The notes under the pieces are model-generated. The model was not told the origin of the DNA. It searched no databases and saw only the letters and a program-made list of their open reading frames with translations. DNA of 64,000 nucleotides from Zymoseptoria tritici IPO323 (Eukaryota; Ascomycota; Dothideomycetes; Mycosphaerellales; Mycosphaerellaceae), in assembly GCF_000219625.1 (NCBI RefSeq), contig NC_018217.1:3162001-3226000 (forward strand). Direction: 5' to 3'. Below, piece by piece: positions 26,496-64,000 of the stretch. The stretch's first letter is position 1; each line of letters starts with the position of its first letter. A program made the translations under genes and the position numbers.

Positions 26496-26508
26496 CCGGC
26501 GGCGCTAG

Positions 26509-27027: not shown

Positions 27028-27042
27028 TAGTCGAATTCGTCG

Positions 27043-27788: not shown

Positions 27789-28569
27789 TCTAATTAAGGT
27801 CCCCTTATATCTAAGCCCTTTATTTCGAGGAATTCTTAATAATCCTTGTATATTAACTTAGCTATCTTATCTCGGAAGCGCACCCTATAGTTACTACTAA
27901 TATCTCTAAGGTTATCGAATCCGTCCTTATCCTTACCGTCCGTATCGTCGTTACTATCCTTATCGCGAGGGCCTAATAACTCCGGTTCCGAAGATAGAGG
28001 CTAGTTACTACTTAAGAGAATAAAGTTATAGAGTACGAAGTAGTAGAGGATAAACCGCGTCTACTTACGGATACTATACCTCCTATATACGCCCTATATA
28101 AGGATTAGAAACCGCTTCTTAAGGATACTAAAGACACGCTTAACTATATTACGTAGTTATAAATACCGTAGATTAAATAGCTCTTCCTTCGTCTTAGGTC
28201 GCCGCTACGCTACCCTCTACTCGCGGATATAATACCTCGTTTTCTCGTATAGTATAAGGAGCCTATCGTTAACCGTAGAGTAACCGCTATTAGTAAGGTA
28301 ATACTAACTAGGCGGTATATCGAATCCCTCCTTATATACCTTCTTTAATACGGTACTATCCGGTATAGAGCCCTCGTATCTAACGAGTACGAACTAGAAC
28401 ACTATATCGAGGTTATAAGCTACTATAGCGTTCTACGAGATCGTCCCCTTACGACTATTCTATATACCTCTAACTTCCTCCGGTAGATTTATCGGTAGTA
28501 ACGTACTATCGATAGCTCTAATAGCGTTCTTAAACTAGTAGAACTTACTAAATAGTAAGTAGCTAGTAT
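27789..28569 (-). pseudogene. Harbinger-like (DDE_Tnp_4) transposase, C-terminal part, RIPed
   Basis: Read on the minus strand from 28569 this gives the conserved DDE_4 pattern NAIRAIDSTLLPINLP, then SRKGTIS(*)NAIVAYNLD, VRYEGSIPDSTVL, PPS(*)YYLTNSGYSTVND and RYYIRE, ending FRDKIAKLIYKDY. The stops (asterisks) sit at expected Gln/Trp positions. The N-terminal part of the same gene is found at 48001-48400, after the inserted LTR element. The transposase is inactive from stops and from the insertion. Confidence 0.75.
28566..28569. repeat. Target-site duplication GTAT, left
   Basis: GTAT directly before the left LTR equals GTAT at 47997-48000 directly after the right LTR. Confidence 0.7.
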
Positions 28570-28843
28570 TGTGAGGGGGGAACTTCCAAAGGTTCCGATC
28601 TCCCGCGGATAGTAGCAGTGCGGACGTATGGAGTAGCATAGGGGGCAAAAAGGGCGGCAAACTGTATAATTAGAGTAAAAGGTAGGGGGGGTAAAGGAGG
28701 TAGTATTAAGAGCTCTGTACTGTTAGGCCTCGTGTGCGTAGGGTGGTGTCTCTGTAGGTCGGTGTCTTAATAATCCTCCGACCTGCATACGAAGCTAAAG
28801 CTAGATACAGACCGCACGTAATAGTACGATATTCCCTACTATA
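28570..28843 (-). repeat. 3' LTR of element A
   Basis: 274 bp, a direct repeat of 47723-47996. It lies downstream of the polypurine tract when read on the minus strand. Confidence 0.85.
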
Positions 28844-29189: not shown

Positions 29190-31962
29190 GCTAAGTACTA
29201 TCCTCCTACTGCATGTCGCGTCTAGGTACGCGCTTGCTATCCTTGCCGATAAGTAAGTCGGGGACTTCCTAGGGTACTGCGATGTCCGTATCTCCCTACC
29301 TAAGCAGCTTACGTTCCCTGTCGTCTACATCGTTAGGAGCGACTTTAGCTAGTAGAGGTTAGTGCTTCTAGAAGTCGGTCGGGTGCTTGTCCTTAGCGTT
29401 ATAATACGATCGGTTACCGAACGTATTCCTCTCCGCGTACTTAATGTCCTTATAGTTTACCTTTACTCGAGCTACAGTCGCATCCTACTGCTTCTTAATC
29501 TATGCCCTTAGATTAACAACATTAAGGCGTATAAGCTTCTCTAGTTCGACGACGACTCTAGGGCTCTCCTACTTCTCGTAAGCAATAAGTGCAGCAGCGA
29601 TATAGTTGTTAGGTGTTAAAGACACAGCCGTAGGGAAGGCGTAAGGAATCTTGCCGTACTTGTTAATAAGCCCGGAGGGTGTCTTGTCGGGGGCGGTTAG
29701 GTCTATATAAGCTTTGCGCAGCATCTCCTAGTTACTAGCTTCGGCACATTCGAGAGAACTATCTAAATACACAGCTACGAACTAGGGAAGAATCGTTCGA
29801 CGTTCGGTCTCTGCCTTAGTATCGACACTATATAGCAGATGCGGAACCGTAATACGAACATTAAATGCCTTGTAAGGAACGTGTTCCTACTTAAGCTTAT
29901 AGCGATCTAGGAAGTGTTGCGGCAGCACCGTATTATTAATCTTCTGTACTGCTCCGTCTGCGCAGTTGTTAGCCCTTATCTACTAGTACCATTCCTAAAA
30001 GATCTCCTTCTTATGCATCCTCTTAACAAGCACCGTGTAGTCCTTCTTGCCCTCGTCTGTTAAGGAGACCGTACCTTAAATCTGGTTAATACCGCGATTC
30101 TCCTCGACTATGCGGCTAACCGTAAGGTCGATGTGCTTAAAGGTAGTGTTGTCGCCCTTCTTAGTGCTTTTAGCGTAGTATAGGTACGACACTAGCCAGT
30201 GCTTATAGTTACCTCGTAGAAGAACATATAGCAGCCAGTATAAGATGTCCTAGCGGATAAGCTGCTAGATCTAAGAGTAGCACATCGTGCGAAGCTATCC
30301 GTAGTTAGGCTAGCTATTAATTTCGCGCTAATGCTATAAGTACATATCTATTTCCTTATTAATAATCTTGCAAAGGGCCTTGTCCTGTCCAATCTACGCG
30401 AAGAGGGGAATGTTAAGCGTGCTATTTCTCTTAAACTCGTTCTCCTAACCGGCCGTTAAGTACATCGCTTAGCGAGCCTTATTAAAGAAGCCGTTAAAGT
30501 TGAGCTGGCCGAGTTCTCTGCGTAGAACGTTATTGTCGAAGCGGTACGGCCTAAGGAAGTCCGATAGTCGAGATAGACGAGCATCCTTAAACCACATCTT
30601 GTACGTCTCGGAACCTGTCTTTAGCTAGCTGAGCTTATACGTATCGTACTTAAGGGTAGTGAGTTTAAAGAGCGTGTTGTTCTTTGCTATTACATTCCCG
30701 GTCTTTACCTTAATTCCGAAGTACTAAAGTAGGTCCCTTGCATAGTTGTAGTATAGGAACGTGCACTCATCCTTTAGCTTCGTACTGTCCGGATATAGCA
30801 GCTATAGGCATCGAAACAGCTAGTTTGGGGTAGCAAGGCGTTGCGAAAGCGGAAGCCTCCTTAGGCTATTAATCGTAGCGATGATTTAAGGTAAGGCGTT
30901 CTTACAATTATAGGTCGTGTTTGTGGGTTCCGTAATAGGTATGCCGAGAGCGATCTGTGTTTTAGTTACTGCCTAACTTACCGAACGAGCCCTTCCCGTA
31001 GTGCGAACAATAGGAGACGCGTAGATACTCCCTCCGAGACTAGGGCTGGAAATAGATCTGCCGGAGTATAGTGTTTAGGGGCGGCCGGAGCTACTCTCGG
31101 AAGGAGTACCGCGGATAGGAAGACTGCCGAGATTAGCTGGCTTTTCCTTAGTTTTGGACCGCGTGCTTATAGTAGGAGGTGCTTCGATCTGCTTCTAAGT
31201 GTTAGATCTAGACGTAATTTCCTTCTCCTTTCCTTTAGGCTTGTAGGGCACTATCTACCTACGACTATCTATATGCCGGTTGTACGTGTTGCGCACGATA
31301 TTAATCTGCTCCTGCGTAGGGCGATCGATTCCTCCTAGTTTAGCGACTGTAAAGAAGTCCTTAGTAGTGTACTTAGTCCCTCTCGGATCTATATGTCCCT
31401 GTCTAGCGCCCTAACTGTACCGACGAATGTATTCTTGTAAAACAAGTATAGCTACTGTCGTACCCTTATCGGACTACGTCTTGTACTTCGAAGACAGCTT
31501 TCGAATCTCTTTTGCTATGTTCTCGGATTTGTACACGTATTACCTTAGTTCCGGGTTTATATCTATTACGTCCTGTCCCTATTCTTTTGTAAGGGCGTCG
31601 TAAATGCCCTTCTTGCGGTTGCGGGTCCTCCTGCTATCTGTAGCTGCCGCTACTAGCCTCGGATAAGCAGCTGCAATACTATCCTGTCTAGTAATCCTCC
31701 CGGTTCCTAAGGTAATAGGAACCTAGTTTATCCGCACGAAATCCTATATGCCTACTGCAAATTCTGCTGCTTTTTCTAATCCTAATTCTAAGGTATTAAC
31801 AATATCTAACACTACTCGCTCGCGGTCCGTATCTAGCATGCTCTTAAGGAGACTCTCGAGTTTTCCTAGCTCTCTAGTGTTCTACGCAGTCGAGAAGGCT
31901 ACACGCATTTCTTTATTATTTGTTAAGGGTGCGCTCCGGAGGCGAGCTAGGATGTTATCCAT
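29190..31962 (-). pseudogene. Extra ORF of element A after integrase; candidate 2OG/Fe(II) oxygenase-like protein, RIPed
   Basis: One minus-strand frame runs from ATG 31962 for about 900 codons with stops only as TAG/TAA at Gln/Trp-like positions. The first ~330 residues are helical and then basic/Ser-rich (MDNILARLRSAPLTNN...). The C-terminal half has GDNTTFKHIDLTV (HxD at 30127-30135), ITVPHLLYS (His codon 29839-29841), RRTILP 13 codons later (Arg ~29797-29802) and TPSGLINKYGKIPYAFP. HxD...H-x(~12)-R is the metal and co-substrate pattern of double-stranded beta-helix 2-oxoglutarate oxygenases. From memory, similar segments occur in uncharacterised fungal proteins. The function is inferred, not shown. 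The 3' end is approximate because stops obscure it. Confidence 0.5.
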
Positions 31963-33240
31963 GTCGGTAGTAGTATGCGTAGTTGCGCTCGTTGTTAAGG
32001 TGTGTTATATGCGCTCGGTGCGCTCGTATCGTTTTAAAGCTGTTTTTGCGCTAATGCGCTCGGTTAGTATATATGTTGTATGCGCTAATACGCTCGGTTA
32101 GTATATATATTGTATGCGCTAATACGCTTAGTTAGTAAGTGTGTCGAGGGGGGGCTTATAGATAGTGTTTAATCAGGTCGAAGGTCTGCGAGGACGCAGA
32201 TAAGGTTCGTCTAGGAGGAAAAGGAGTCGTTAGGGGGGGTGCAAGGAGATAGGAAAGAAAGAAGATATAGTAGATATTATAGGGAAGTCGGAGGTGTAGA
32301 GAAGATTAAGGCTTTTAAGTAGGGCGAGCAGGCAGAAAGCAGGTCCCTTACTTGTTTGTAAATTGTGTGCGTGCTCGTGCTCGTAATTGTTAGAAGAGCT
32401 CGTAATTGTTAGGAAAGGCCTATAATTGTTATGTCGGTAATTGTTGTATTAGTAATTGTTAGTTTGTGAATTATGTGCGTACTTGTGCTCGTAATTGTTA
32501 GAAGAGCTCGTAATTGTTAGGAAAGGCCTGTAATTGTTATGTCGGTAATTGTTATGTTAGTAAATGTTTCGTATTAGCAGTCTCGTAATTGTGGCAGAAT
32601 ATGCATAATTGTCTAGAAAAAGGCAGCCTAGCCCCTAAATATCCGAAAGGGTAACTAAGCTTTATAAATTATAACTCCCTCCCCTTTAGGGTAGAGAACG
32701 TATATTTAGTACGCTCTAAACAATAGTAGATTAGTCGTAGCTAGTAGAGACACCTAGGTAATGTCCTATCCTTCGCAAATATTTACTAGACCCCTTTCCC
32801 TAAATAGTCTGGCAAACAACTAGGCCTATCCGGCAGCGCTAGCCTTTAAAAGATGTCCGCTAGCAGGAGGCAATAACAACAGCTACTCGCTCGTGATTAT
32901 ATGCGTGAATTTGCTCGTAATTGTTCTTCGTAAATGCGCTAGTAATTGTAGTACGGAAGAGTTTAGCGGTGTCGGTCTATTAGATAGATAGCGGCGAGGA
33001 CGGAGATAAGGTCGTGCCGGGGGTCTTGTTGTAAGTAAAAGAGCTTACTTTAACACAAAGAAATGTGTGTGTCTCTTTAGGTAATAATAATGTTTGCCTA
33101 AGAGAGCGAGCGGAGCCTTTGCTAGACTACCGGTCTAGGAAACAACTATAGTAAGCCGAGAGCATCCGTCGCTATGTTTGCCAGACCCTTAGTCTAGGAA
33201 ACATTTTAATGCGAATTATAGCCGCACTTAGATTCTTAGG
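31963..33240. repeat. Repeat-rich spacer between integrase and extra ORF
   Basis: No gene. A ~40 bp unit with gcgctaa(t/a)(a/g)cgctcggttag occurs three times at about 32,050-32,130. Two ~110 bp tandem copies at ~32,360-32,570 contain ctcgtaattgttagaagagc, and the 9-mer gtaattgtt recurs more than ten times up to ~32,940. Three palindrome copies lie at 32779-32818, 33118-33144 and 33173-33205. Confidence 0.6.
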
Positions 33241-33329: not shown

Positions 33330-34588
33330 AGCGGCAGGGTCGTCGCCCTAAGGTAATGCCGGCTCTTTATCCTTACTCTTAATACTTGCAAACCATTTAG
33401 GGTTTAAGTCGCCGCGTGTTAGCTCTTCGAGCTTATTAATATGCTCGAGGTAGTCTGTAGGGACTACCCGAAGCATATCCCTAGACTATATGCCTTAGAG
33501 CTCTGCCTCGTCTAGTTCTACAATCTTGTAGGTACTAGTATCTAGGCTTATACTTATTACTCGGTAGGGCCCCTTCTATCGAAAGGACAGCTTCTCGTAG
33601 GTAGACTTTCGCTCGCCTCTTTTTAACAGCACGAGCTGCCCCTTCTTAAGCGGCTTGTTGTCGATATTATAGTTTATATCCTAGTACTCCTTCTAGGCAT
33701 CTCGTAGCCTACGCTATAGGGCGGTAACTTCTCTAACATCCTTCTTAGAGCAGAAGATCTACCTTACTCAAGCGGCTAGCAAGTCCTCGGTTGTACGCAC
33801 TATCTTCTAGTTAATCGTTTTCTAAGTGTCGTACCGCAGCTTAATAGGTAGGACGACATTAAATACATAGAAAAGACTTGCCGGCGTACATCCCGTAGAC
33901 CTGCGAACAGTAGTGCGGTCTGCCTATAGTGCTGCGTAGAAAAAGGATCTCCAGCCTTTTAGCTTGCCCTACGTGCACTTTAAGAAGACGTCTAGGATGT
34001 TAGGATGTCCACGCTCGACTAGACTATTCGCTTTAGAGTAGTAGGCGGACATACGACTAAGGTTTGTATCTATTTAAGCTAGCAGCTAAGGCACATCGCC
34101 GTAGTTCTTAGGCCCTCTATTAAAGAAGATCCGGTTATAGGCTCTAGTGCGTAAAAAGACGTCTTTAAAAAGAAACTTCGCGACCTGCCTTAAGCTTATA
34201 CCTTAATTCTGCCCCTTGTTTACGATCCTTCCTTCCGGCTATCTAGAGAGAGACTCCCTAGCTATAATAATGCTTCCGGAGCTATCGACATAAACGACGT
34301 CTACATGCTACGACTCGCTAACATAGCTGTTATATCTTAGGTGTAGTTCCGACATACTTGCTAGTCCGGACGATCGAAGAAGATACTTAGGGCACTTTCC
34401 GACGAAATCTCGGACCTGCTTATATAGGCCCTGCTAGTAATACCGACAAGCGATCTTTATGTAGGTCCCTTTACGCCCTCTGTAGCCGGAGGTAGGGTCC
34501 CTATAGAGGGTACGGATAATCGACTTCTGCTTAGACTCCTTGTCTATAACTCTGTATAGCGGCTTGTTAATTCTTTTCTAATACTATA
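33330..34588 (-). pseudogene. Integrase region of element A pol, RIPed
   Basis: Reads on the minus strand from the LINE junction. A zinc-binding start (YRDPTSGYRGRKGTYIKIACRYY, with CPKYLL later; expected His/Cys partly mutated to Tyr) leads into HVDVVYVDSSGS (first Asp of the DDE core), SAYYSKANSLVERGH (the Glu region), and a C-terminal part YEKLSFR(*)KGPYRVISIS typical of Gypsy integrases. Stops are TAG/TAA. The upstream RT/RNase H part continues after the LINE at 40206. Confidence 0.7.
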
Positions 34589-34601
34589 GGCAGCGTTCCC
34601 T
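34589..34601. repeat. LINE target-site duplication, left copy
   Basis: ggcagcgttccct here equals 40193-40205 and marks a 13 bp duplication made by LINE insertion. Confidence 0.85.
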
Positions 34602-34813
34602 GTTTGTTTGTTTTGTTTGTTTGTTCCATTTACGTCCTGTAGGAGTCTATGACTATGTAGGACGGCTGTCTCGCGACAGCAGTCTATCTATGTACAATCG
34701 TTGTTCTCTCGTATCTCTTGACCTTAGGGAAAGACCCGTGCCTAGGATAGTAGCCAGCTAGTATCGAAGGACTTTAAAGAAAGACAAATAAGGAAAAGTA
34801 AAAGGAGTGTAGG

Positions 34814-37800
34814 CTAGACGGTCTCGTCTTCGCCTCTTGCTAGGTGCCAGGACCTAGAAGCAATCTTTGTATCCGAGAGAAAGGTAGTAAGGTGTTTCCG
34901 GAGTTCCTTATCTTCTACTATTTCTAGTAGAGATTGTGCTTGTCGTAGCGGTAGTGGCCTAAATACATCGTAGATAGGGCAGCTACATACGAGGTGTTCT
35001 GCTGTTTCTCGTCGTCCGCAAGGGCAGTCTGGCGTCGTTACGTGTCCAAAGCGATAGAGATAGGACTTTAGGTATCCGTGTCCTAATAGGATAGTATAGA
35101 AGGCACTAGTTAAAGCGCGTCTTCCTCCTATTCTATGTTTTCCTGGCGAGCTCCATGGAAATCGACTAAGGTAGCTATTTGTATTCCTAGGTACCTTGTT
35201 AATCTCCCGTTGTCTTGCTATTTCGTATCGGGTTTTCCAGACGCTAAAGAGATCGTCTTTTGCGTAGTTAGCCCTCTCGTGTTCTACGAAATGCTTGTAT
35301 TGTCGGAGTCGATAACAGAGTAGTTGTATCTGTGTTCTCTGTCGTTTTTGCGGAAGTATCTCTCTCGAGTCCTCGTGTCGGACTTCTCGCGTATCCGAAG
35401 GCGCGCTTTGGATAGCGAGTCTTACGGGGTGGTTTTCGGGTAGCTTTGCTGCGCGTAGAGAGTATAAAATTGACTGTCTCTCTAGGCGTAGATCCGGGGG
35501 GAAGAGATTTGACTCTACCTCGGACGGGACGTTTGGGGCGGTACGGAAAACGCCTAGGATCTTTCTACAAGCTTTACTTTGTAGAGATACTAGAGGTTTT
35601 ATGCTCTTTTTCGACCGCCACCAAACCGGGGCCCCGTAGTCTGCTATTGTAGTAACGCAGGCTAGGTAGATCTTTCTTAACGATATAGAAGATAGACCGC
35701 GTTCGGTGTTTGCTAGTCTTTCTAATCGATAGAATGCTGCTTGTGCTTGTGCCGATCTTATTGCAATGTGCTCCTTAAAGGTAAGACCGGCGTCTAGCCA
35801 AATCCCAAGCTACCTTATCGCTTTCTTTGCCGGGCGAACAATGTCGCCGTTTGGAAGAATTACCGGGCAATCGGACCCTTTCCCTTTCGAGAAGTGTACT
35901 AGGTCTGTCTTTGCTAGGTCGAAAGCAATCGAGTTCTTCTTTCCTAGGTCTATTAGCCTTCTTGCCTCACGTTCTAGTACCTTAGAGTTCTTCTTAAGGG
36001 ACGTAGACGAGGTAGATAGTCTAATGTCGTCGACGTAGGAACTAGGAGTAACTCCTTGTAGCGAGAAGAATATGTCGCGCGTATAGATAAGAAAGAGGAT
36101 AGGAGACATCGGGCTGCCTTGTGGAACGCCGATCTCTACGTCCTGGAATTCCTGTATCTGTCCGTCGAATGCTATTCGTAGGCGTCTATTGCTCATAAAC
36201 GACTGAACCCAACGTATAAGGCTGTGCGGAAGCCTTAACTGGATCATTATTCTTAACAGTCGGTTCTTTGCAACGTAGTCGTATGCTCCTCTTACGTCGA
36301 GGAAGATAACCGAAGTCTTCTTTTTCTTTCTTCGATTCTCCTCGATTTCGTTCGTTAAGAGAAGCACCGTATCGATAGCCGATTTCTTCTTTCGCCCTCC
36401 TAACTGCGAGTCGTGTAGAAGGGGCTTCGTCTCTGCGATAATCCCTAGGCGTTTTGCGAGTATTCTCTCGCTAATCTTGCCGAGGCAGTTTAGGAGAGAG
36501 ATAACTCGGTAGGCCTTAGGGACCGAATAGTCTAGTTTTCCCGGCTTTGCTAGAACTGCGCCTGTCGCAACTTTCTAGCATCGGGGGTAGTGTCCTTCGT
36601 CGAGTAGCCTTCTGTATATACGTAGAAAGGTAATAGGAATAGCGCCGTACGCTTTACTAATAATAGCTTGCGTAATGCCGTCTAGGCCCGGCGTTTTTCC
36701 TTTTACTATCTTCGTGCTACAGGCGGCAGCGAGTTCCTCTTCGGTTAGCGTAGTCCAGCCCCAATCCCCGGCTGTATACGCTTCCTAGCGGCTAGGTAGA
36801 GGTTCCTCGGCAGGAGGGCGCGGAAATAAGGCTTCGGAGAAGGCTTTACATTTCCCCTCGAAAGAATCTTCGTTGTTTATCGTAGGTATCTGTCTTCGGC
36901 TGCTATTCCTAGTATAGGACATAGCTTTAAAGATAGATTTCGAGTCTTCTTTTTCGAGGAAGGCGTTCCAGTGGTTCTTCTTAGCTGTTTTAATAGCTTG
37001 GAAGTACTCGTTTCTCGCTTTCGTATACGCCTCTTTCTCGTCTAGCGTCGGCGTACGTCCGCAGGTAAAGGTCTGTCTATATGTTCTAGACATTGTGCGG
37101 CGTAGCGTGCGTAGCTCTCTATTCCACTAAGGTTTTGCGCAGGCGTATACTACTTTCTCTGGGATTGCTCCCCGCATCGATTCGGTAATACACGAGGTAA
37201 AGGAGTCTGCGATGTCGTCGAGGGAGTTCGTATAGTCAATAGACGTCGCCTTGCTTATTAGGAGATCTGTAAACAGTTCCCAATCCGCGGAAGCTATATC
37301 TAGAACTACTTTCTTCTGTTGGGCTCGATCTTGCGCGCCAATAAGGTCTATAGATATAGCCTTATGGTCTGAGCCTGTCGGAATCGTTCTCTAGTCGATT
37401 TCTTTCGTAGATAAGGATCCTCTTGTAAACGTAAGGTCTAGGACCGACTCTGCGTCTAGGTGCGGCCTATAGAAGGTCCCGACACCTATCGTATTACGTA
37501 GAGTAAAGCCCTAGTCTTCTATCCACTCTATAAATTCGCGGGCGCTAGTAGTATCCTTTCCCCTCGGATCCCAGGACGGGTGTCTAAGGTTAAAGTCTCC
37601 TACTAGTAGAGTGTTTGGAAGGAACGTGTTGCGTAGAGAGTAGAGGCTTCTCTCTGTTGTTCGTCGGTTTTGCAGGTTCTCGGTATCCCGAAGGTCCTTC
37701 TCGTTGTAGAGATTAACTATCTGGATCTTGTTGCCCTTCTTGTCTGAAATAACAAAGGAAAGTATGTCGCTGTCGTCTAATAAAATAGGAGAGATATTGA

Positions 37801-38059
37801 CGTTGAGTCTTGTGCTAATATATAGCATTGTTCTTGGCCGGATCGTCGAATCCGTAGTCGTTGGGAATAGCTGGTTGTACTCCCGGTGTGCGATAGATCT
37901 TGTCTCTTTGTAGCCTGTTATCGGGTCTTCTATAGTCTACGGTTCCTGGACTAGTAGAAGGTCGGCTTTCTGCTTAACCGCGACGTCTAAGGTAGACTCT
38001 GTAGCCTCGATAGATCGGTTAAGATTGACGTAGAAAATCCGTAGAGAGTGTTCTAACAT
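34814..38059 (-). pseudogene. LINE ORF2: endonuclease, reverse transcriptase, C-terminal zinc knuckle
   Basis: One 1,082-codon frame with no indel, broken only by about seven TAG codons, for example VQEP(*)TVD at ~37,936 where Trp fits. Order: AP-like endonuclease (RIFYVNLNRS..., LLVGDFNLRHPSWDPRG at ~37,580), linker, RT core with DVRGAYDYV, GVPQGSPMSPILF and SYVDDI (35810-36367), thumb/connection, and a Cys/His segment DCPCGRRETAEHLVCSCPIYD (~34,950-35,030) typical of LINE C-termini. The ATG at 38059-38057 overlaps the ORF1 stop (38055-38053) in ATGTTAG, suggesting translation by termination-reinitiation. Apart from the stops the catalytic residues are present. Confidence 0.85.
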
Positions 38060-38659
38060 GTAGAACGTTCTAGGGGCCTCCCTTTCTGTTGTATACAATC
38101 CTTCGCCTTCTCGACTCTTAGGCTGTCCGCGCCTACGTATAGACGGTTTTGAATAGCCCTTTTTGCCTCCTCCTCGGTGGCAAAACCTACTAGAACTGTC
38201 GCCCCAGTAAGAGTCCTTCTTCTCTCTTCGTTTGTTAGCCAAATCGGGGTGCCTGCGAGTTTAAGACCTCTATTAAAGGTCTCAATTTCTCGTTGAATGT
38301 CCTGTAGGCCCGTTGGCGTGTTGAAGTTCGCGGTCGAGACGCCGTGGACTACGACCTTGTGCCAGAGAGAGTCCTCTATTACCCGTGCCTCGCCTACGAT
38401 ATCGGTAACCTTAGTAAGGCTATCGATCGTTCGTTGGCGGGCTTTCTCTGTTGCAAAGTTTAGGACAATGTTACCCCGAAATGATTTCTTTATCGCAAGG
38501 ACAGCTAGCTCTTGGTCTTCGCCTTTAAGAGCGTCGTTGATTTTGTCTCGGGTTGCGATCTGGTCGAGTTCCTTCTCTTTATCCTTTGGTACAAGGATAA
38601 GAGGCATCGGTTCTGCTTGTTCTTTCGGCTTGCTAGCCCTCCGGGAGACGGTCGTCCAC

Positions 38660-38692
<33 letters not shown>

Positions 38693-39231
38693 GTTGTCTT
38701 TGTTGTCGAGGAGGTAGAGGTAGAGGTAGCGGATCCGCTGTCTCCCTTAATAACGTCTGCGAAAGTAGGCTTCTTCGCCTGTGCTGCTAGTTTCTTTGTT
38801 GTCATTTCTAGGTTCGAGACTTGCTTTGCGAGGATTTGGGACGTTGTCCTAAAGTCTGTACGCTCGGTAAAGTGCCGAAAGACTTCGAGAAGGTCGAGAA
38901 CCCGGGTTTGTTCTCCTGGAAACCCGACTAGATCCCCCGCCGCTTCGATTAGTAGCTGTCGGGCTTGTAGGATCTTCTCGTTCGCGGGCGTGTAAGAGAG
39001 TGTTTGTTTCTTTCCGAGAGAAGGGCTGCGAGTCGGGGAGATACTGAATTCGAAGGGGTTTTGCCTTTTCCTAGGTATAAAAGGAATGCCGGTTCTTTTT
39101 AGTAGTTCCTCCGGCAACGGCAGGGTTTTGAGAGACTCAAACGTAACTTCCTCGTCCCCTCTAGCCGTAGCTTTTGGAGTCTGAGGGGCTGAGCTTGCGT
39201 CTGTCATTTCCATTTCCGTCTCGGTAGACAT
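38053..39231 (-). CDS. LINE ORF1 protein (RNA-binding/Gag-like), intact frame
   Basis: A 392-residue open frame beginning MSTETEMEMTDASS. It has an acidic N-terminus, a helical middle (about 95-150), a poly-Gln run of ~10-11 residues (about 183-193, encoded by a TTG repeat on the plus strand at 38661-38690) and a C-terminal half with alternating charge. Two RRM-like beta patterns lie there (LAIKKSFRGNIVLNF, GATVLVGFATEEEAKRAI). ORF1 proteins of LINEs package the RNA. No CCHC knuckle is seen. It is the only intact transposon frame of this size in the block, which supports a recent insertion. The large plus-strand frame 38297-38995 is its shadow. Confidence 0.75.
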
Positions 39232-40192
39232 TGTCTTGTTGTTGTTGTTTGTTGTTTGAAAAGAGGCTTAGCAGTCTTACGCCGAGAGGGCTGCTTGTTC
39301 GTCTCTATTTCCAATCGCGTTCGGGTCCTAGCCTACTTGCGACACTAGGGCACTCTTCTTCCTACTATACAAAGTAGGAGAAGGTATACTTCAAAGAGGA
39401 GAGAAGAGATATATAAATATACCTCTGCTTCTAGGAAGTACTCTGGCCTGCAGCAACGTGCGTCTTCGTAGCAGGCTTTAGAGGCGTTCTGCGGGTAGCT
39501 GTAGCAGGTTCGGGACAACCTTTGTCTCTAGGGAAAGGTAGGCCTATACTCTATACAGAGTATCTAGCTATACAGCTAGTACTACTACTCTAATCCCTAG
39601 AGGTGCAAATTCGTCCTTACTAAACCACACTGCTCCTTTAGCTTCCTCTCTCGGCGGCGTAGGACAACAGGTAACTCTAGTGTAGAGAGAACTAAGTGTA
39701 TGTGTATGTTTGTGTATCCTGGGGACACTGCTCTTGTTTGGCCTTTGGCTCTTTCAGAATTCGACCAAATCAGGCGTTTGATAGCTAGAATAAAAGCTCT
39801 CGTCGAGGGCTTTCAAACGGGCTACACGGCGTCCGAATCGGCGGCGTATTGGTTGTGTTGTGGTGTGTTGAAGTGTTGTAGTGTTGTGTTGTGGTACAGG
39901 TTGTGAACCTTCCTTGTGCAATGCCCTAAACAGGGAATATTTCGAGTGTGGGGGAGGTAAGGTCGGAATAAGGTTTCGGAGGTGGGGGCCAAATCCCGGA
40001 GTTTAGGGTCAAAATTTGCACCCCAAAGGGGGCAACAAGGTGAATCTTTGAACTCCAGTAGCGGCGTGGGTTTTGAGGGCAGCGAGGTGAATGCGGGTTC
40101 GTTGGAACGGCCTTGATAAGGGCTTTCGAATGGTGCGTGTTTGGTGATGATCGGGTCAATATTGGGTGTGCAATGGAAGTGCGGATGTCGAT
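39232..40192 (-). other. LINE 5' leader
   Basis: About 960 bp upstream of ORF1. It includes a TG-rich stretch at 39845-39905 (repeats of tgttg) and G-rich segments at 39,940-40,040. It is not RIPed. An internal promoter is expected here for a LINE, but no specific motif was identified. Confidence 0.5.
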
Positions 40193-40205
40193 GGCAGCGT
40201 TCCCT
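40193..40205. repeat. LINE target-site duplication, right copy
   Basis: ggcagcgttccct, identical to 34589-34601. Confidence 0.85.
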
Positions 40206-42600
40206 AACTAGGTAGCGAGATGCCCGTTTCTTAAAGGTATACTAGCTGTTCCTGTTTACTCCTACCGGTCGTCGAAGGGTTAGGAGGTAGTATACTACAT
40301 CGCGGTAGAAGTCCGAGAGGAAGTAGTTAATACTGCTCCGAACAAGCTCCTCTTCTAGAGCAGGGGTAATCTCTTCGGCCTCGACATAATTCGCGTATAC
40401 TGCATATAGCGTGCTGTTAATTATTTCTTCGTAGTCCTGCTTATGCTCCTTGTTAATGTTATCGGACTAAGTACGCAGTCGTCGAGATAGCGCATCTATA
40501 GCAGTGTATAGTCGGCCGGGAACATGCTTTACATCAAAATCAAACAGTCGTATCTATAAAAGCCACCTTGTTATTACTGCGTTAGGCAAGTCGGTCGGTA
40601 GTTAGTTTAACTAATAGACTAGAGTATTCGCATCTAGCTTAAGCAGGAAGTAAACACCGTAGAGATAGTGCTTTAGCTTTTTTAATGCCTTTAAAACACT
40701 AAGACACTTAAGTTTCCTAGCATCGAACTTTCGCTCGTTCGGCTTCTAGATGCCGCTTTCATACCGAGATAGGTGTCTTGTCTTGTAGTTGTCGACATCT
40801 CGTTGCATAAGGACTGCTCCGAACCTATCCCTAGATGCATTAATAGTAAGGATAATCTATCCTCCCGAAACATAGTCTATAGTCTTAAGAGCCGGTGTAG
40901 TAACGAGAGCCTTCTTTAATTTCTCTATCGATGCGTTATGCTCGGCAGTCCAATACTAGCATATATTAGGCTTTAGTAGATTGTATAGCGGAGCTAACAC
41001 CTGTACATACTTCTTAATCTAGATCTGGAAGTACACGACTACGCCTAGGAATACTCGAACCTCCTTAGGGTTGTCTGGAGCAGGCTACTCGGTAATCTTG
41101 ACGACTCGTGCTTTATTAGGGTAACAGCTATGCACATTACAAACGTACCCGACAATTAGTACCCCTGTCGAGAACTATCGCGACTTAAGAGCTAATATAG
41201 TAAGTCCGGCTCTCTTAATATCGGTAAGGACTACGTTAAGGTTCGTAACATATTCCGCAACCTAACGTCGGATGCCGGGCTCGGTTTCCTTATTATCGTA
41301 CGTAGTACGTAGACCTTTAACTCTAATGTCGTCTAGAAAGGGGCGAGCTTAGTAATTTATATGCTCCTAAAGGATAGTAGTTATAATCCTTTGGAACTAA
41401 GCGACCGAATTCGTTCCGCCTATAGGAATCCCTATGTGCCTAAACAGCCCGAGCGGTGTATGGAAGGAGGTGAGGTCCCGACAGTGCTCGGCTAGGGGTA
41501 TTTAGTCGTATCTAGAGAAGAGGTCTATAAGCGAGGTAGTAGTGCACCCTACGAAGTCTGCGGAAAAGGAGTCTGCGTCCGGTAGTATATTAGCATCCCT
41601 TAGCGTAACACAGTTTACTTCTGTAGCTAAGTTAATAAGTCGGTACTTCTTCTCCTCCTTCTTTTCCTAGACACGCTCCCCTTCCGGCATAGGGTCCTTA
41701 GCTTTTAGTAGCTTTAGGTTGTCTAGCTTCTTTTGCACGATAAACTAGGGGTTCCGGTATGTACTATAGGATAGCTCGATTACTCTATTGCGGGCTCGCT
41801 TACTAACTATCTGTATTACTACCTTCTCGAGGGCTGTAGGGATAGGGAAGTTCTTGCACTGCCAGGCCTTGTGCGGAATCGTGCGGATCTCTACTAGTAG
41901 GGAAACATCCTCGTTAAGGCGACTAACATATAAGAAATCCTAAGCAAGAGACTTCTCTCGTCGGAAGAGACAGGCATAGAAAAGCTCGAGCTCTTTCGGC
42001 CTTAGTTCGATCGTAGTCTTAAAGCTGTTTATGCGTTTAGGGGTAAGTCTCGAACCCTTCTCGATGTCGGAAAACTTAGGGATAAGGTACTTGTTGTCCT
42101 AGGGGTGCGTGCTTAGCGTAAGTTTGGCCTTATTTTTAAGACATCTCTGCTGCTAGTTAAAAGTACTACTAGGGGGCTTGCTGCTAGTGTCGTAAATACT
42201 ACTATTAACGGGTCTAATCTTGTCCGCCTTGCGTTTGTACATAGTATATGCATTCGGAGCGGATCCTGCCTCCTATTCCGTTTTTCGCTAGAGGTAATCT
42301 AACTAGAGAATATCCGCCTACTTAATAATTAGCGACGCTACTCGAGCTTGTAAGGTAGTTTCCTAGACTATATCCGAGGGATTAATAGTATATTTTGTCG
42401 AGGTAATAGTCCGGAACTCGTCCTAAGCCCTTACTTTATCCTAGGTGCTGAGGAAATGTTTGCTAGACCCGGGGTCTAGGAAAGGTTTCGGGTCGACTTC
42501 GACTAGCAGTCTCGTTCCGGACGACTGTAAGTAATCCTCCGGATAGTTAAATAATGCTACCGCGTTACCGGGGTGTCGGCAGCCTACTTATTTCCCAACT
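40206..42600 (-). pseudogene. RT and RNase H region of element A pol, RIPed
   Basis: On the minus strand the RT core reads KYRLINLATEVN, LRDANILPDADSFSADF, SLIDLFSRYD(*)IPL, DLTSFHTPLGLFRHIGIPI and GGTNSVA(*)FQRII, characteristic of Ty3/Gypsy RT. The RNase H end reads FDFDVKHVPGRLYTAIDALSRRLRT just before the LINE. Stops (asterisks) are at Gln positions. The frame is offset from Gag/protease (42,982 and 41,447 are not in phase), so there is either a programmed shift or an indel between ~42,500 and 42,980. Confidence 0.75.
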
Positions 42601-45600
42601 CCTCGGGCTTGGTCGTGTAGAATGCCTCGGTCGGACCGTACCTATCTCCGTATCCCTTAACTCTAGTAAAGGTAATTGTTGTTCTATCCGGTATCGCGAT
42701 TGTGCACTTGAGGGACCCGTCGTCGCAGTTTACAGATCTAAGCCGTACCTGTCTAGTCTATAGTCGGCCGAGAAGGAAAGGTGCAGTCCGTGCAACAAGA
42801 AACGATAAGTAGGTAAGGACTCCTATAACCTCGATCGGTACCCGCTCTACAATACCTAGGAAATCCGCACAGCTACTAACCGTATTTATCTGTATTAGCC
42901 GGCAGGTGCGTATACTAACACCCGCTCGCTTTACCGCAGACTAGCTTATAATGTTCCCTTTAGATCCCTTGTTAATTATAGCACGACGCTCCCTATGTCG
43001 TTTCGGACCGACAATGCATTCCACAACGGGTAAGGGTACAATAACATAGTCTCGGTCGTTAAAGGACAACCTCGCGTCCTTAGGGTCTTCGTACAGGTCC
43101 TATATTAGTCTCGGGGGCATTGTAACATATAGCTCCTTAATTATAGGACCGAGGAAAGCAGGGTTATTGTCTTCTATCTCTTCTACGAACCTATTACGTG
43201 CATAAAATCTAGAGGGTAGGATGTGCTTAGCCGTAGCACTGCCAAGTTCAAACTCGACTCGCACCCTATAAGAACAAAGCGGCTTATCTATATCGTACTA
43301 GTATACTGCAGTAGCAGCAATGTTGTCCTCCTTAACGATAATCGACAGCCCGGCTTCCTTAGCAGCTATTGCGAAGTCTTCTTAGTTCCGAGCATAGCGC
43401 TTAAGAAGTCCCCTAGCTATAGCAGGCGAAGTAGCGAGAAGCTCCCTAATAGGGATATTAGACGGCTGCGCTAGTATCCTGTTAAGCAGCACCTTTTCTA
43501 TGTTAAGTTACTCTCGAAGGTAAATGTCCCTTCTCTAAGCACCCTTTCTAGTCGCAGCAGGCTTCTGGTTCTTCTTTTTCTTTAGCAGCGGGGGGTTAAC
43601 GAAGCCCTAAGAAGGAGGGGTAGGATCTAGATCTATGCTTCTAGTAGGGTCCTAGGTTTAGCTGTCGTTTGCGGACTGCGGCTGGTTACCGGTGTCAAAT
43701 GCACTATTACTAGTAAGAGTGCCCTGTGTCGACTGCGAGCCTTCTTCGACTACCTTTATATACTCTTCCGTGTTAGGGATCTTACGGGCATCGATCTTAA
43801 TAGACACTGTCTTCTTTAGCTTTATAACACAGCTGGTATTATTGCTCGGCTTGGCGGCTAGCTCCTTTCCCTTAGTCGTGCTTGTTAGCCTAGTCGTAGC
43901 GTTCGTAGATAGAGAGTTAGTACGGATCTGATTTACATAGGGGGCACAGGGGTCTCGCTTATTAATGTACACCAGATCCTTAGGAACCGTACTTCTAGCG
44001 ACGATGTTGCACTAGTTTCTATTTATATTCGTCGCTAGTGCGGGTCCTACAGGGGAACCTAAGCCTTAGCCTAGGTAACTAGGTTAAGCTAGTAACGAGG
44101 GTGTAGATTTCGAGGTCGGTAGAACAGGGCTAGGAACAAGTGCCGGGTTAAGAGGTGTACTTAGTACATGTGTCCGAGGAGCAAAGGCAGCTGTAGGTAG
44201 TTTATAAGCTAGCTAGTACTTCTTAGCATCCTCGATATTCGCATCGGTAGGCTAGGTAATAGCCCTTCCCTATGCTTTCTCGATAGCGGGAGCTATTATC
44301 CGGAGCTTAGGCTAATCCGGCTAGTTCCTGAACTGCATCTTTCGTCTGTTGACATTACCTTCTCGTCCGATATACTACTTCTTTTTACTATCGCGGTATG
44401 TCCAGCCCGCACTTAGGAGGTAGTTTATATACTTGCATTCGTAAATACTATAACCGGGTTTAAAGTAATAAAAGCATATATACTTAGAGGCTTCCTAGTA
44501 GAAGGGGTTCGAGCTGCTAGACGACTAATAGGGCACTAGTCTAGGTCTAGCGACATTGTACAAGTAGTACTCTAGAGAATTAGGGGTGTTATTAGTATGT
44601 AGCGTAGCTATATAAGACTTCGGAAAGTCTCCAGGTGGATTAACAGCTACACGTATACTTTTCTTAGCTCTCGCACGCTTAATCTTAGCAATAGTTATCT
44701 TAGAAAGCTTTTTAGACAGGTCCTCTATGTCCGGTAGCTTCTCTTTTAGTACGCGTAACGACTAGACTCTATTGTTCGATATATCTAGCTTCGGATACCT
44801 CTTCTTAGTCTAGTTAACAAGCTAGCTAGTAACCTGGCTCTTGCCCTTACCGTACAACTCCTAGTAAGCTATACGGCTTGTAACGTACTTGAGTATCGCA
44901 TCGTACAATAGAGGAAGCTAAGTACAGGAGGCTAGGTTCGAGACGTCTACCTCGAGCTTGTTTATAATTTCCTGTCCTACCTCGGAGGGCAAGCCTTTAA
45001 GGAAGAGGTAGTATCGAGCGACTTCGTTGCATTATTTAAGAGGTATCCTTTTCGAGACCGCTTTAAAAGTTATAACGTACTTACGCAGGTTATCCTTCTG
45101 TCCGGAGACATCCCAGACTCTTTCCTTTGCGTACAGCTCCTCGAGGAAAGGGAGGCTATACTTATACACCTAGCTATTATAGTACCGATAGTAGGAAAGA
45201 GCCTCTTCCTTAAAAGCTTCGTAGTTATCGCTGTTAAAGCCTAAAAGACTCTCGAGCTAAGCTCGAACATCTAGCACCGAGTATCGAGCAGCAAGTCGGA
45301 TCCTTTCCCTATTAGGAGTGCGTAATCCTTTAAAGTACAAATCGAAGAAGTCGGCTATAGTCTAAAAGAAAGTCGAGGCATCCTTGCCGTCGAAGGATAG
45401 AGCACTAGGCTCTCTAGGGAAGGGTACGCGACTACGGTAAGCAGGGGCTTTGTTGTTGCGAGTAGCTGCGGTAAGGGCAGTAACAAGATCTGCGATATTT
45501 ATGTTAGTAGGCTAGGGAGCGGGAACTGTACTATAGGTCGCTATAGTAGCAATCCCTTCGGCTTAAGGGAGAGCCTTATTAGTCGACCCTTTAGTCGAAT

Positions 45601-45796
45601 TAGTCGCAAAGCGAGCTAATAGAATCCTATTACTATCGCGGAAGGCGCGTGCATCGGAAGGTGCCTAGATAGGGCTATTAGTTCCGGAAGCCTTGCCGGT
45701 ACTTAGGGTATTGCGGAGAATCTCTAAGGGAGTATTAAGATAGCTACGACGGGAGGGTTCGTCTAGGCTATTGTTAGGAGTGTTATTAGGAGACAT
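42600..45796 (-). pseudogene. Gag and aspartic protease region of element A, RIPed
   Basis: ATG 45796 (MSPNNTPNNSLDE) starts a minus-strand frame that stays in phase to about 42,980. Gag has ...SFDGKDASTFFQTIADFFDLYF..., a helical capsid-like region, and a knuckle YICFYYFKPGYSIYECKYIN in which Cys and His of CCHC appear as Tyr (TGC to TAC, CAT to TAT, both RIP-type). The protease reads RAIINKGSKGNIIS, where Asp-Ser/Thr-Gly is expected, so the active site is mutated. The listed frame 43658-43972 is a fragment of this ORF. Confidence 0.65.
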
Positions 45797-47700
45797 CGTA
45801 ATAGCGATATACAGATTAGTATCGCAAATAGGGAAATAGGAAGTAAGGAGTACAGATGTATGTTCGGAAGGCGTATAGGAAAAGGTTAGCAAGTCGTCGT
45901 CGATACCGGGGCGGCGGGAGTAGGCTATTTAAAGCTCTCGAGGGTTTGCTAGACTATTAGTCTAGGAAACATTGTTACTACTAGTAGTGCACTACAGCTG
46001 ATTATACTATTTATACATAGTCCGGGGCTATATTTAATAGTCTCCTTAGTGCGGGCAGGGTGTAATCGTACGTTCCGGGCACGTAGGACGGCTAAGTATC
46101 TAGAAACTCGAGAATAAGGCAGGATCGCTCTTCGTGCGGTGTAGAAGAATCTAGGGTAGGGAAATAAGGACTAGGGATGCGTCTAGGGTCTGTAGCTCGG
46201 TATTATTTGTTTACTAGACCCTCTTCCTAATTTAGTCTAGGAAACATCCTATCCTCGAAAGGTCGCACCTCTTAGACCATTCTAGCTAGCTAGAGCCGAG
46301 AACTACATATCGCATTCTCGTACCGAGAACCTAGTATCGGTAGATCTAGGCAGGGCTTATGTGCTCCCTAGTTCTAGTGCCGGGTTCGTAGCGATATTAT
46401 CTGCTATTGCCTCGGAAAGCAACACTAAGGAGCGGTCGGACGATCGGTGCGATAGGGCGACGTTTCTTAGGGTATTCGCGACGCCTACGCCATAATGGCT
46501 AGTCAGTCTCGTTTCTTATAGCCATTCTATTAAGAGCACGGGACAGCTTACGTAACCGAGTATTCTCTAATGTCTAGCATGTCTATTATAGCTACTACGG
46601 CGGTCGGTAAAGTTTTCCAGGTACTTAAGGGCTCTTTTTCTACCCTGTTTCTCTTTCTTTTCTTTACGAACGCTACGTATAGGCTGTGCTGCACGCCTGG
46701 CCTACCTGCCTCGGCAGGTAGTCGGGCATAGGAAAAGCTATAGCAGTACGATTTTGGCCCTAGGAGGCTTATTTTCACCCTATTTTGCATCCGCTGGAGT
46801 TAATATTATCTCCGTAGTAGTATTGCGTTTTAAAGGCGTGCAGCTGAGCTCGGTAGCGTAGTCGCTCGTACAGGTGTAGGAGCGATAATCTCTAATGTCT
46901 ATTATATCTATTATAACTTTTACCGCGACTAGTAAAGTTTTCTAGGTACTTTAGGGCTCTTTTTCTACCCTATTTCTCTTTCTTTTCTTTACGAGCGCCT
47001 CGTATAGGGTTTACCGTACGCCTAGCGTACCTGCCTCGGCAGGTGCGGTCGCCGCTTGTCTCGCTTACCTTTACCGGTAGGTAGTCGGGTGTAGGAAAAG
47101 CTATAGCAGTATGATTTTAGGCCTAGGAGGCTTCTTTTCGCCCTAAATCGCGTCTATTATAGTCGATATGCTCTCCGCTATAGCGTCGCGCTTTAAGGGC
47201 GTGCATCCGAGTCCGGTAGCGCGGTTGCATGCATTAGTGCGAGAGCGCTTTATACCGAGCCTCTATACGATGTTAGTGTCCCTTTTTTATGTACTCTTTT
47301 GCTCCCTCGGTTTCTTCCTTCTCCTTCTTAGGCTGTATCGACGAGCTGCTTAGCGTAGGGTGTGCAGCTTAGTAGGGTATAGGGAATGTGTATGTGTGTT
47401 CGTGTGTTCGTGTATTTAGGGTGTATTCGGTAGTAGATCTAGCAATGTGCACATAGCGATTTATGTATTAAGGTACTTTGTATTTTAAACTTAGACTTTA
47501 AACTTAGGTACTTAAGCCTACTGCCCTAGCTAAGGGGCAGAGGTATATCGTAATCCTTTCTTCGAGGGAGGGTATTCGTCGTATGCGTCGTAAGTACTCG
47601 AAAGGCGACTGGCGCTGTTGTCGAGGTCGTAGCTACTCCGCACTTCCGCACTGCTGCCTACCCTTTATATATCCTCCTTCTCCGCTTTCGCGAAGGAAGG
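45797..47700. repeat. Leader of element A with a ~320 bp tandem duplication
   Basis: No supported gene. Two diverged direct copies lie at about 46563-46880 and 46885-47240. Both contain ctctaatgtcta..., gggctctttttctaccct, tttctctttcttttctttacga, acctgcctcggcagg and ggaaaagctatagcagta. The motif acctgcctcggcaggt is a perfect 16 bp palindrome in both. Palindrome copies of the TGTTTGCTAGAC type lie at 45943-45973 and 46206-46247. Confidence 0.6.
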
Positions 47701-47722: not shown

Positions 47723-47996
47723 TGTAAGGGGGGAACTTCTAAAGGTTCCGATCTCCCGCGGATAGTAGCAGTGCGGACGTATAGAGTAGCATAGGGGGCA
47801 AAAAGGGCGGCAAACTGTACAATTAGAGTAAAAGGTAGGGGGGGCAAAGGAGGTAGTATTAAGAGCTCTGTACTGTTAGGCCTCGTGTGCGTAGGGTAGT
47901 GTCTCTATAGGTCGGTGTCTTAATAATCCTCCGACCTGCACACGAAGCTGAAGCTAGATACAGACCGCACATGACAGTGCGATATTCCCCACTACA
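47723..47996 (-). repeat. 5' LTR of element A
   Basis: 274 bp, a direct repeat of 28570-28843 with ~15 transition differences. Followed by the GTAT duplication at 47997-48000. Confidence 0.85.
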
Positions 47997-48000
47997 GTAT

Positions 48001-60116: not shown

Positions 60117-60371
60117 TGTTGTGGGGCAAATGGTGTCGAACATGGTTTATGGTATGGCGTGGTTTCAGGTCTTGGCGATGTACAGTAGTCGGATTCTTCC
60201 TTTTTTTGAGGATCTAACAACAACATCACCGGTCGTCGGTAGCACTTAATGCACTTCATAGCTACTGCTCATTTCTTAATGTAATTCCACGCTTAATACC
60301 GCGCCCTTAAGACACTTATGCACTTACCTCTTAGTGCCTTAGGTTAGTAGTAGTCGATTCTACCCACCACA
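60117..60371 (+). repeat. 5' LTR of Gypsy-type retrotransposon B
   Basis: 255 bp from tgttgtgggg to tacccaccaca, a TG...CA segment followed 5 bases later by a primer-site sequence. It is not similar to the LTR of element A. The second LTR would be outside the window, so this call rests on the ends and the primer site. Confidence 0.6.
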
Positions 60372-60376
60372 TTTTC

Positions 60377-60396
60377 TGGTGGACGATGTAAGACTC
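60377..60396 (+). other. Primer-binding site of element B
   Basis: tggtggacgatgtaagactc differs from the element A site by one base over 19. Both elements probably use the same tRNA primer. Confidence 0.65.
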
Positions 60397-61729
60397 TTCA
60401 CGGCTCCTTCACACGAAGGAAAGGGCATACTCGGTGAGTGCATAAGTCGTCTATATTACACATAATAGTTATAGGAAAACTCGGATCTACGGACGCACCC
60501 CTTAAGGACTCGGATATATAGTACTAAGAAAGACACACGGCATATAGAAGCTTTACTCGTACCGAAGACGGCAGTCGTGCACTCGTTCGTACTGCAGGCT
60601 GTTAACAGGGCGAAGTGGAAGCACTTAAATCAAGGAAACCTGAGCGCATGCCGAATCTATAGCATAGCTTATACAAGGTCACTAGAAACACAGCACATTC
60701 AAGAACACTAGGCGCATAGTCACTCGTATTATAGCTTATTTAAGGCTTAAGGAAACCTGAACGCACACCCGCTCGTAGTGTAGTTTATACAAGGCTCATA
60801 GTTTACCTCTGCTCTAAAGACGGCGTATGCACGCCCGCTCGTGCTGTGGTGCGCTAACATGGAGTACGAGGTGATCTCTTAATGTTTAAGGTTACGGTTA
60901 CTAAACGCATGGTCGCTCGAATTATAGTTCATTCAAAGTTAAGGCTTAAGGACACCTCCAATTTAAAGACGGTGCACGCACACCCGCTCGTGCTGTAGTG
61001 CGTTACTATAAATTGTGAGGTATAAACGGACGCATGCTCGCACGCAGTATGGTCCACTCGAGATTAAGGAATTAAGGAAACCTAAATGCGTGCCGAATCT
61101 ATAGCACGGTTTATGCATTGTTACTGTTACTGGAAAACCTAAATGCACGTCTATTCGTAGCGTGGTTTATGTACGGCTTAAGAATTATAGAAATCACGGA
61201 TTAACAGCACACCTCGAAGACACGAAGAAACTGGATAAAATCTAACTAGAATTACTAGATACCTAGAGCGTGGGCATGCTGAAAACCCTAAAAACTAGAT
61301 GCCTCGCGATCGATACAACACTTCTTCTCTAAGGAACCGGCGACTACAATCGCCGATTCCTACATTCCTCCGACACTTTCCGGCGATCGCTTATTGCTAC
61401 ACATTTTACTAGCAAGATCACTACTCGATCTGCAATACCTCGTTTGCTATTAAGGATCGAGTAGTCTAAGGGCCTAACTTAGCAAGGATATCGCTGTTTA
61501 GAGCCGGCTCTTAATATTGCGGTTTATAGATTACCCTCCGAGTAGGGAACGCACCGACTATATTAAAGAATCTTATGGAACCGAGCATTCGTGCTTAAGT
61601 ACCTCCTTATGCATACCCGACATTTCGAGGAATTATCGCCTTCTACACTAATTAGTTAACGATACCTTAGCTCCCTTATTTCGCAGTTTACACCCCCTCT
61701 TATTTTAAACCTTACCGACACTAATCGCT
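60397..61729. repeat. Leader of element B with diverged internal repeats
   Basis: No gene. A ~150-250 bp unit recurs about five times with blocks such as ggaaacctgaacgca, cacccgctcgt(a/g)(c/g)tgt(a/g)gt and tatagcac/tggtttat (60,640-61,200). Confidence 0.5.
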
Positions 61730-63140: not shown

Positions 63141-64000
63141 CGCACTAAGATGCCGCCTACTACTAGTATACTGGAAAACCCGGTGATCCGAACAAGAGAC
63201 CACTGCAGTTCCGAGGGATTAATTAGCAGCCGAGACTCTAGCTAATACTGCCAAAGCTAGAAGACGTATACAACATAAGGATTCCTTAGCTAGCATCCTT
63301 TAACTTCCCCGCCGTAGAGAGATCTTGGAGCTCTCGTAATATAAGCTAGATTAGCGGTCCGATTACTAGTGCTCGTAAACTCGGCTAGAAGCCTATTAGA
63401 ACACTTAAATACAGTCGCCCTTCTAAGCCAGATCCGGATGCGGTTTCTTTAGCACCCCCGGTGCCCGCGCCTACGACTAGCTCTAATGCAACCCCGGTTA
63501 GTAGCCGCTAAGGATAGACTTCGAGCTCCTACTTTAATAACATCCTCTACATTAAAGAAGATAGTTGCCCTGTTCTGGTGCCGGTCTATAATACCGAGGT
63601 CCTAGTAAATGCCGCGGCAGTTCCTAAGAAGGCAAATCTAGTAGTCGGTAGTATCTTAAAACTACATAATAAAAACCACCGCGTGCTAAAAGAGCGAGTT
63701 ATCGCAGACTAGTCTACGGCTAAGATCAAGACCCTAAAGTCTCACACCGCAGATGTAGTTCGTTCTTAGTCCACACTACCTACTAACAGCTAAACGATCT
63801 AAGGAACGAACTCGCCATTATCCGTTCGCTTCTTAGAGCCGCCGGTAGAATCCATCGAGCGAGACTCTTAGCGCCAACTAGCTGCTAAAGACTATATAGA
63901 AGACGCAGACTTAGATACCGAAGTTAGGCTAGTAAACCCTCTAAAGGAGCTAGCTAAGAAGAGAAGGACCCCTCCTAAAACTCAGCGAGCAGACAACTAT
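63141..64000 (+). pseudogene. Start of protease/pol region of element B, continues past window
   Basis: The Gag frame continues with stops through a Ser/Pro-rich linker to LVPVYNTEVLVNAAAVPKKANLVVGSIL and NPLKELAKKRRTPPK near the edge. No protease active site is clear before the window ends. Confidence 0.4.

Follow-up and report, generated by a model that had tools for sequence, protein, structure and literature searches.

A large Ty3/Gypsy element of the orchid Phalaenopsis carries an extra open reading frame (ORF) with a C-terminal Fe(II)/2-oxoglutarate (2OG) oxygenase domain, and its ALKBH5-like product demethylates N6-methyladenosine RNA in vitro, according to the accessible part of the source (PMC9289625). 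Fungal DNA transposons carry TET/JBP enzymes, 2OG oxygenases that the available text of PMC12730594 discusses as protection from methylation or from repeat-induced point mutation (RIP). Accessory ORFs beside gag-pol are also described, in the portions of the papers at hand, for long terminal repeat (LTR) retrotransposons of plants (PMC7264820) and of rotifers, in which a non-envelope frame is likewise named ORF3 (PMC5408684). Here, we analyzed a stretch of 64,000 nucleotides of Zymoseptoria tritici IPO323 (the window; contig NC_018217.1, positions 3,162,001 to 3,226,000), in which an LTR retrotransposon carries a third, RIP-broken ORF (ORF3) on the gag-pol strand, after the integrase-coding end of pol and before the 3' LTR. 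We conclude with good confidence that ORF3 is the relic of a Ty3/Gypsy accessory oxygenase gene that was copied with gag-pol and retained by two or more families of elements. No description of such an oxygenase gene in retrotransposons was found in the literature searched, most subscription journals lying outside the search. The accessible parts of two papers dealing with the repeats of fungi that infect wheat name no such gene (PMC3017866, PMC3538342), and that of a Monilinia paper treats its PhyH gene as secondary metabolism, apart from the retrotransposons (PMC5987419).

ORF3 and its active-site positions are located as follows.
29191..31962, minus strand: ORF3, with 923 codons and a stop, broken by RIP; Fe(II)/2OG oxygenase preceded by a long N-terminal part (from the frame, the copies and profile matches)
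30127..30138, minus strand: KHID, the HxD motif (His610 at 30133-30135, Asp612 at 30127-30129)
29830..29832, minus strand: codon 711, equivalent to the distal metal-binding His of the relatives; reads TAT (Tyr) in the window
29800..29802, minus strand: codon 721, Arg at His+10, the probable 2OG-binding Arg (codon 722 is also Arg)

The frame starts with the Met codon at 31962, ends at a stop (29193-29191) common to all 13 copies read (12 in addition to that of the window), and extends over 2769 bases without frameshift in all of them. A preliminary description of this DNA, which named no strand, had placed a third frame of about 900 codons at this site, in the orientation of gag-pol; the minus strand is the correct one, and KHID and VPHLL, the motifs cited in that description, occur in no plus-strand frame of the window. 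Over the 13 copies, the 522 stops of frame 1 consist of 456 TAG, 66 TAA and 0 TGA, whereas the two remaining frames, with 1772 stops between them, include 45 TGA. Alignment of the window copy with the 12 others revealed 1830 transitions, 1406 of them in contexts that were possibly CpA/TpG, as opposed to 92 transversions. The stop pattern fits RIP hitting the Gln and Trp codons of a once-open frame, and the assignment of the stops to RIP-type positions thus held. The absence of TGA is support rather than proof, since the copies are related and RIP converts TGA to TAA as well. ORF3 can be read as what RIP has left of an accessory gene; that its ancestor probably encoded a full protein, as already proposed, is borne out by the intact length of the frame in 13/13 copies and by intact homologues elsewhere. 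Two diverged ORF3 copies (G000:C4:283058-285646 and C3:820135-821334; 67-73% protein identity) perhaps belong to an older subfamily.

A search with ORF3 residues 424-923, with X at the stops, matched two intact proteins of other organisms (E values of 4.6e-47 and 7.1e-30), and a six-row profile search recovered at least 98 relatives among the best 7986 candidates scored. Host names on eleven of the rows (Venustampulla, Rhinocladiella, Candelina, Sclerotinia, Xylona [two rows], Vezdaea, Pseudocyphellaria and three Botrytis species) are those of fungi that we take to be ascomycetes. Comparison of the profile of the ORF3 copies with that of the family gave an E value of 9.6e-68 over 763 columns, indicating that the N-terminal part belongs to the family too. 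In the relatives, this long additional part contains a Cys-x-Cys...Cys-x-x-His motif before the oxygenase domain (C 77/78, C 72/77, C 84/84, H 83/84; residue counts in relatives are based on 99 rows, with only ungapped rows considered at each position). A basic motif resembling a nuclear localization signal (NLS) is present in the 60 residues preceding Cys-x-Cys in 35 of the 69 relatives with a scorable linker, versus 48 of 802 control stretches. Scans of IMG/VR (viral) and GTDB (prokaryote) revealed no relatives, and searches of PDB sequences afforded no convincing one, with weak matches to MTH1 at E values of 0.37 and worse. Nothing was found with a whole-ORF3 profile built from the 13 copies, for which the search words were drawn from the first 500 residues.

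The HxD motif is conserved in the relatives (His in 98/99, Asp in 97/99) and in the ORF3 copies, 13/13 of which keep His610 and 12/13 Asp612. The distal position is His in 94/96 relatives and is followed by Gly in 94, mostly as PHG. Codon 711 is CAT in nine of the 13 ORF3 copies and TAT in four, namely the window copy and three of the 12 others, the replacement of His by Tyr being a RIP-type change. Arg occupies His+10 in 93/96 relatives and His+11 in 88/96, and codon 721 is CGT in 12/13 ORF3 copies. The preliminary description had recognized an HxD...H...R pattern of Fe(II)/2OG oxygenases. Its KHID is the true HxD and its Arg matches that of the relatives. The VPHLL His (29839-29841), however, does not correspond to the ligand: it lies three residues before that position and is aligned with His in just 43/97 relatives. 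The oxygenase identity was nevertheless correct, as judged from the conserved residues of the relatives and from the fold of one of them. Short patterns of this type can arise randomly, and one His had indeed been chosen wrongly, as would be expected for a chance motif in a decayed noncoding stretch; however, the uninterrupted length of the frame in all copies, the conserved residues, the profile match and the intact homologues, which rule this candidate out, leave it a negligible probability.

The structure predicted for one relative resembles those of solved oxygenases with the double-stranded beta-helix fold, which is the fold that an oxygenase assignment for ORF3 had implied; a model of P0002 made with no alignment was uninformative, with a predicted local distance difference test score (pLDDT) of 34. 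The closest solved folds listed are those of DUF1479 and PhyH-type enzymes, the substrates of which are mostly small molecules, and we predict that the ORF3 product was an Fe(II)/2OG oxygenase falling within the DUF1479/PhyH-like structural branch. By the same comparison, the closest folds do not appear to be those of the demethylase branches initially envisaged: TET/JBP and JmjC are not named among the PDB matches listed, which does not by itself exclude a family outside that list. The DUF1479 oxygenases YbiU (4rgk, 7twe) and GIG2 of Candida albicans (6akz) display 13-14% sequence identity, and their chains of ~400-450 residues are devoid of the long N-terminal part of the ORF3 family. PhyH (PF05721) profile matches at E <= 0.1 were obtained for 38/99 relatives (16/49 plus 22/50), two sources name relatives PhyH, and four relatives carry a precomputed PF05721 assignment, whereas relatives P0002 and P0004 do not reach the curated cutoff for PhyH proper and ORF3 has no match to it.

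The host unit of ORF3 is an LTR retrotransposon, probably of the Ty3/Gypsy type. Placed by blastn with twenty 10-kb stretches from ten other genomic copies, it extends from 47996 to 28570 on the minus strand and is ~13.8 kb long once a nested long interspersed nuclear element (LINE), which splits it within pol, is subtracted. The features of the element are the following.
28566..28569, no strand: target-site duplication GTAT, 3' side (flank read; partner at 47997-48000)
28570..28843, minus strand: 3' LTR, paired by blastn with 47723-47996 (272 bp aligned, 274 including the last two bases)
32354..32568, no strand: 107-nt tandem repeat between pol and ORF3
33351..34601, minus strand: 3' pol (integrase), downstream of the nested LINE (open frames; colinear tblastn matches to a second family)
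34437..34577, minus strand: weak integrase zinc-binding piece of pol (Integrase_H2C2, E value of 0.0083, below the cutoff; colinear match in the second family)
34602..40192, minus strand: nested LINE, foreign to the element (RVT_1 at 35798-36541); none of the ten other copies has it here
40193..42300, limits approximate, minus strand: 5' pol, reverse transcriptase and RNase H region (stop density; colinear tblastn matches, 34-67% identity, to the second family)
40614..40745, minus strand: RNase H piece of pol (PF17917, E value of 6.7e-7, above the cutoff)
42600..45830, limits approximate, minus strand: probable gag frame (one frame with fewer stops)
47723..47996, minus strand: 5' LTR (blastn pairing of the LTRs)
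47997..48000, no strand: target-site duplication GTAT, 5' side (flank read)

The order of the pol pieces, with RNase H above the cutoff and a weak H2C2 piece downstream, would agree with the Ty3/Gypsy order (reverse transcriptase, RNase H, integrase) and is colinear in the second family. The gag frame had no secure Pfam match, and the reverse transcriptase of the element had none in the open pieces scanned. The LTR ends are of the TG...CA type, the final CA of the LTR at 28570..28843 reading TA. Matching 4-bp target duplications outside the LTRs were read by eye in 9/9 copies with both ends available, out of 11 (the window copy and ten others). On either side of the LINE, the copy alignments overlap by ~13 bp, as a target duplication would. 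Upstream of gag, the 5' part of the element contains repeats of ~300-336 bp (46561-46858 and 46886-47221) that are ~70-74% alike. Outside the element, a repeat of 600-730 bp occurs twice in direct orientation, ~1.28 kb apart (25766-26496 and 27042-27773); inside another element copy (L009), it sits between ends overlapping by 13 bp and may be mobile.

The association of ORF3 with pol was analyzed by searching the genome with 2.5 kb of pol, scoring the best candidates and looking for ORF3 in the appropriate orientation up to 20 kb downstream. An ORF3 match was present for 39 of the 42 pol matches listed, some of which are fragments of one copy. ORF3 thus moves with the element. ORF3 as a separate unit that had hopped beside pol was ruled out by the LTRs, the target duplications and the pairing with pol, indicating that ORF3 is part of the mobile unit.

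A second LTR family of the same genome also carries an oxygenase frame. Searching the genome by tblastn with relative P0002 gave 60 listed matches, all with stops, some of which belong to another repeat. With a 3-kb query from one of these loci (L029), 12 further copies start at the first two bases of the query and end at 2680-2825, and a part of ~255 bp at the query end (2557-2811) recurs alone about twenty times, as an LTR does. Upstream of one copy, locus L034 starts with the second-family LTR and holds pol pieces colinear with those of the first family (19 of the 20 tblastn matches listed, 34-67% identity; the 20th, from outside pol with an E value of 8e-4, breaks the colinear order and is not counted with them). 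The window also contains part of this family.
60117..64000, plus strand: 5' end of a second-family copy (LTR at 60117-60371 and start of gag-pol), 92.8% identity to L034 over 3882 bases

The oxygenase ORF of this copy lies outside the window and is probably that of L029. GTAC flanks this second-family copy on its 5' side and recurs directly after the L029 3' LTR, both times within one and the same 60-bp repeat, and because of this shared flank the two are most likely one insertion split by other elements over ~40 kb. The 60-bp tandem repeat (59932-60093 and L029:2811-2990), which is the second-family insertion site, recurs at C7:1298352-1298961. A gag-like frame with a stretch that by eye resembles a zinc knuckle (L030:150-1600) adjoins a second-family copy on the same strand and probably belongs to another element.

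The oxygenase frames of the two families are 27% identical over 569 columns and fall apart from each other in a midpoint-rooted tree of 93 sequences, in which their common ancestor (support of 0.85) unites 39 tips, including 35 relatives from other sources. Old capture of the gene, retained since, is the simplest reading; repeated transfer between elements is possible.

Several observations weigh against a retrotransposon-borne oxygenase of this kind. ORF3 itself matched no Pfam family at E <= 10 (two copies scanned), both halves of the Cys/His motif are intact together in 2/13 ORF3 copies, where RIP-type losses are possible, and the NLS-like motif is absent from the ORF3 copies of this element. 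The fold comparison really covered the oxygenase domain alone (model residues 435-770). The relatives in other fungi are known from their protein sequences. For three of the 42 pol matches listed, the 20 kb downstream contained no ORF3 match, and in two of the 39 pairs (spaced by 10.3 and 18.1 kb) another pol match lies closer to the same ORF3. Finally, the elements of this genome are saturated with RIP-type changes despite carrying an oxygenase gene.

In the mechanism that we propose, the oxygenase would be produced from the element, would bind iron via HxD...H and 2OG via the Arg, and would oxidize a target that limits the element, whether chromatin, DNA, RNA, a host protein or the element's own particle protein. 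The product was very probably an active enzyme, as argued from the conservation of the metal triad, and it likely served the element rather than the host. Nuclear location is evenly balanced, and a nucleic acid or chromatin target is somewhat doubtful.

Counterdefense, in which the enzyme would oxidize 5-methylcytosine, 6-methyladenine or chromatin methyl-lysine and thereby shield the element from RIP or silencing, would agree with the RIP-type mutation of the copies, a host attack on repeats, with the NLS-like motif of the relatives, and with the similar role considered, in the available text, for the fungal transposons carrying TET/JBP dioxygenases (PMC12730594). It is unlikely, since the closest folds listed are not of the TET/JBP type, a family outside the list not being excluded thereby, and the heavy RIP mutation of the element indicates that any protection by the enzyme did not last here. 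Action on a protein or RNA in the life cycle of the element itself (Gag, RNA of the particle or translation) instead of chromatin is rather unlikely, the RNA-editing match being no better than those to many small-molecule oxygenases. A metabolic small-molecule oxygenase, carried as cargo to the benefit of the host or of nothing, would be in line with the many members of the fold list that are biosynthetic by title, but the gene has retained its position in two LTR families that diverged from each other, the relatives share the long N-terminal part with its Cys/His motif, and comparison of two host PhyH genes with the family profile by hhalign gave no signal; we regard this explanation as improbable. 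A role for the element, acting on chromatin or on its RNA or protein, is therefore ranked above a metabolic one.

The additional enzymes that LTR retrotransposons carry are a guide to what limits an element in its host, and a 2OG oxygenase at the same place in two divergent families would mean that some oxidation helps elements in a repeat-mutating fungus. Our results suggest that some fungal retrotransposons kept such an oxygenase for their own use. The ORF3 family may also account for a set of ascomycete entries annotated as hypothetical proteins. Since intact relatives exist in other fungi, the question of the substrate is accessible to ordinary biochemistry.

The Phalaenopsis element differs, in the accessible part of its description, by its plant host, by an oxygenase of the AlkB branch that is close to host demethylases, by tested activity and, as stated in the title, by recent acquisition (PMC9289625). 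In contrast, the element described here resides in a fungus, has a DUF1479/PhyH-like predicted fold, no host donor seen and relatives in several ascomycete genera, and is predicted to have encoded an active enzyme. The active sites also diverge: ALKBH5 has H266, R277 and R283, the second Arg being at distal His+17 (PMC9289625, in the same part), whereas residue 665 of P0004 (His+17) is Phe, following a Trp kept in 93/94 relatives. The rotifer ORF3 types encode a GDSL esterase, a DEDDy exonuclease or an env-like protein, and the word dioxygenase is missing from the available text of that paper (PMC5408684). The TET/JBP systems are found, according to the portion at hand, in DNA transposons and Helitrons (PMC12730594), whereas ORF3 belongs to an LTR retrotransposon and to another oxygenase branch. 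An old ascomycete Ty3/Gypsy lineage with a nuclear oxygenase dedicated to reversing or preventing the modification by which the fungus silences or mutates repeats is quite improbable on present evidence; if it existed, it would be the retrotransposon counterpart of the TET-bearing DNA transposons, drawn from a different branch of the oxygenases.
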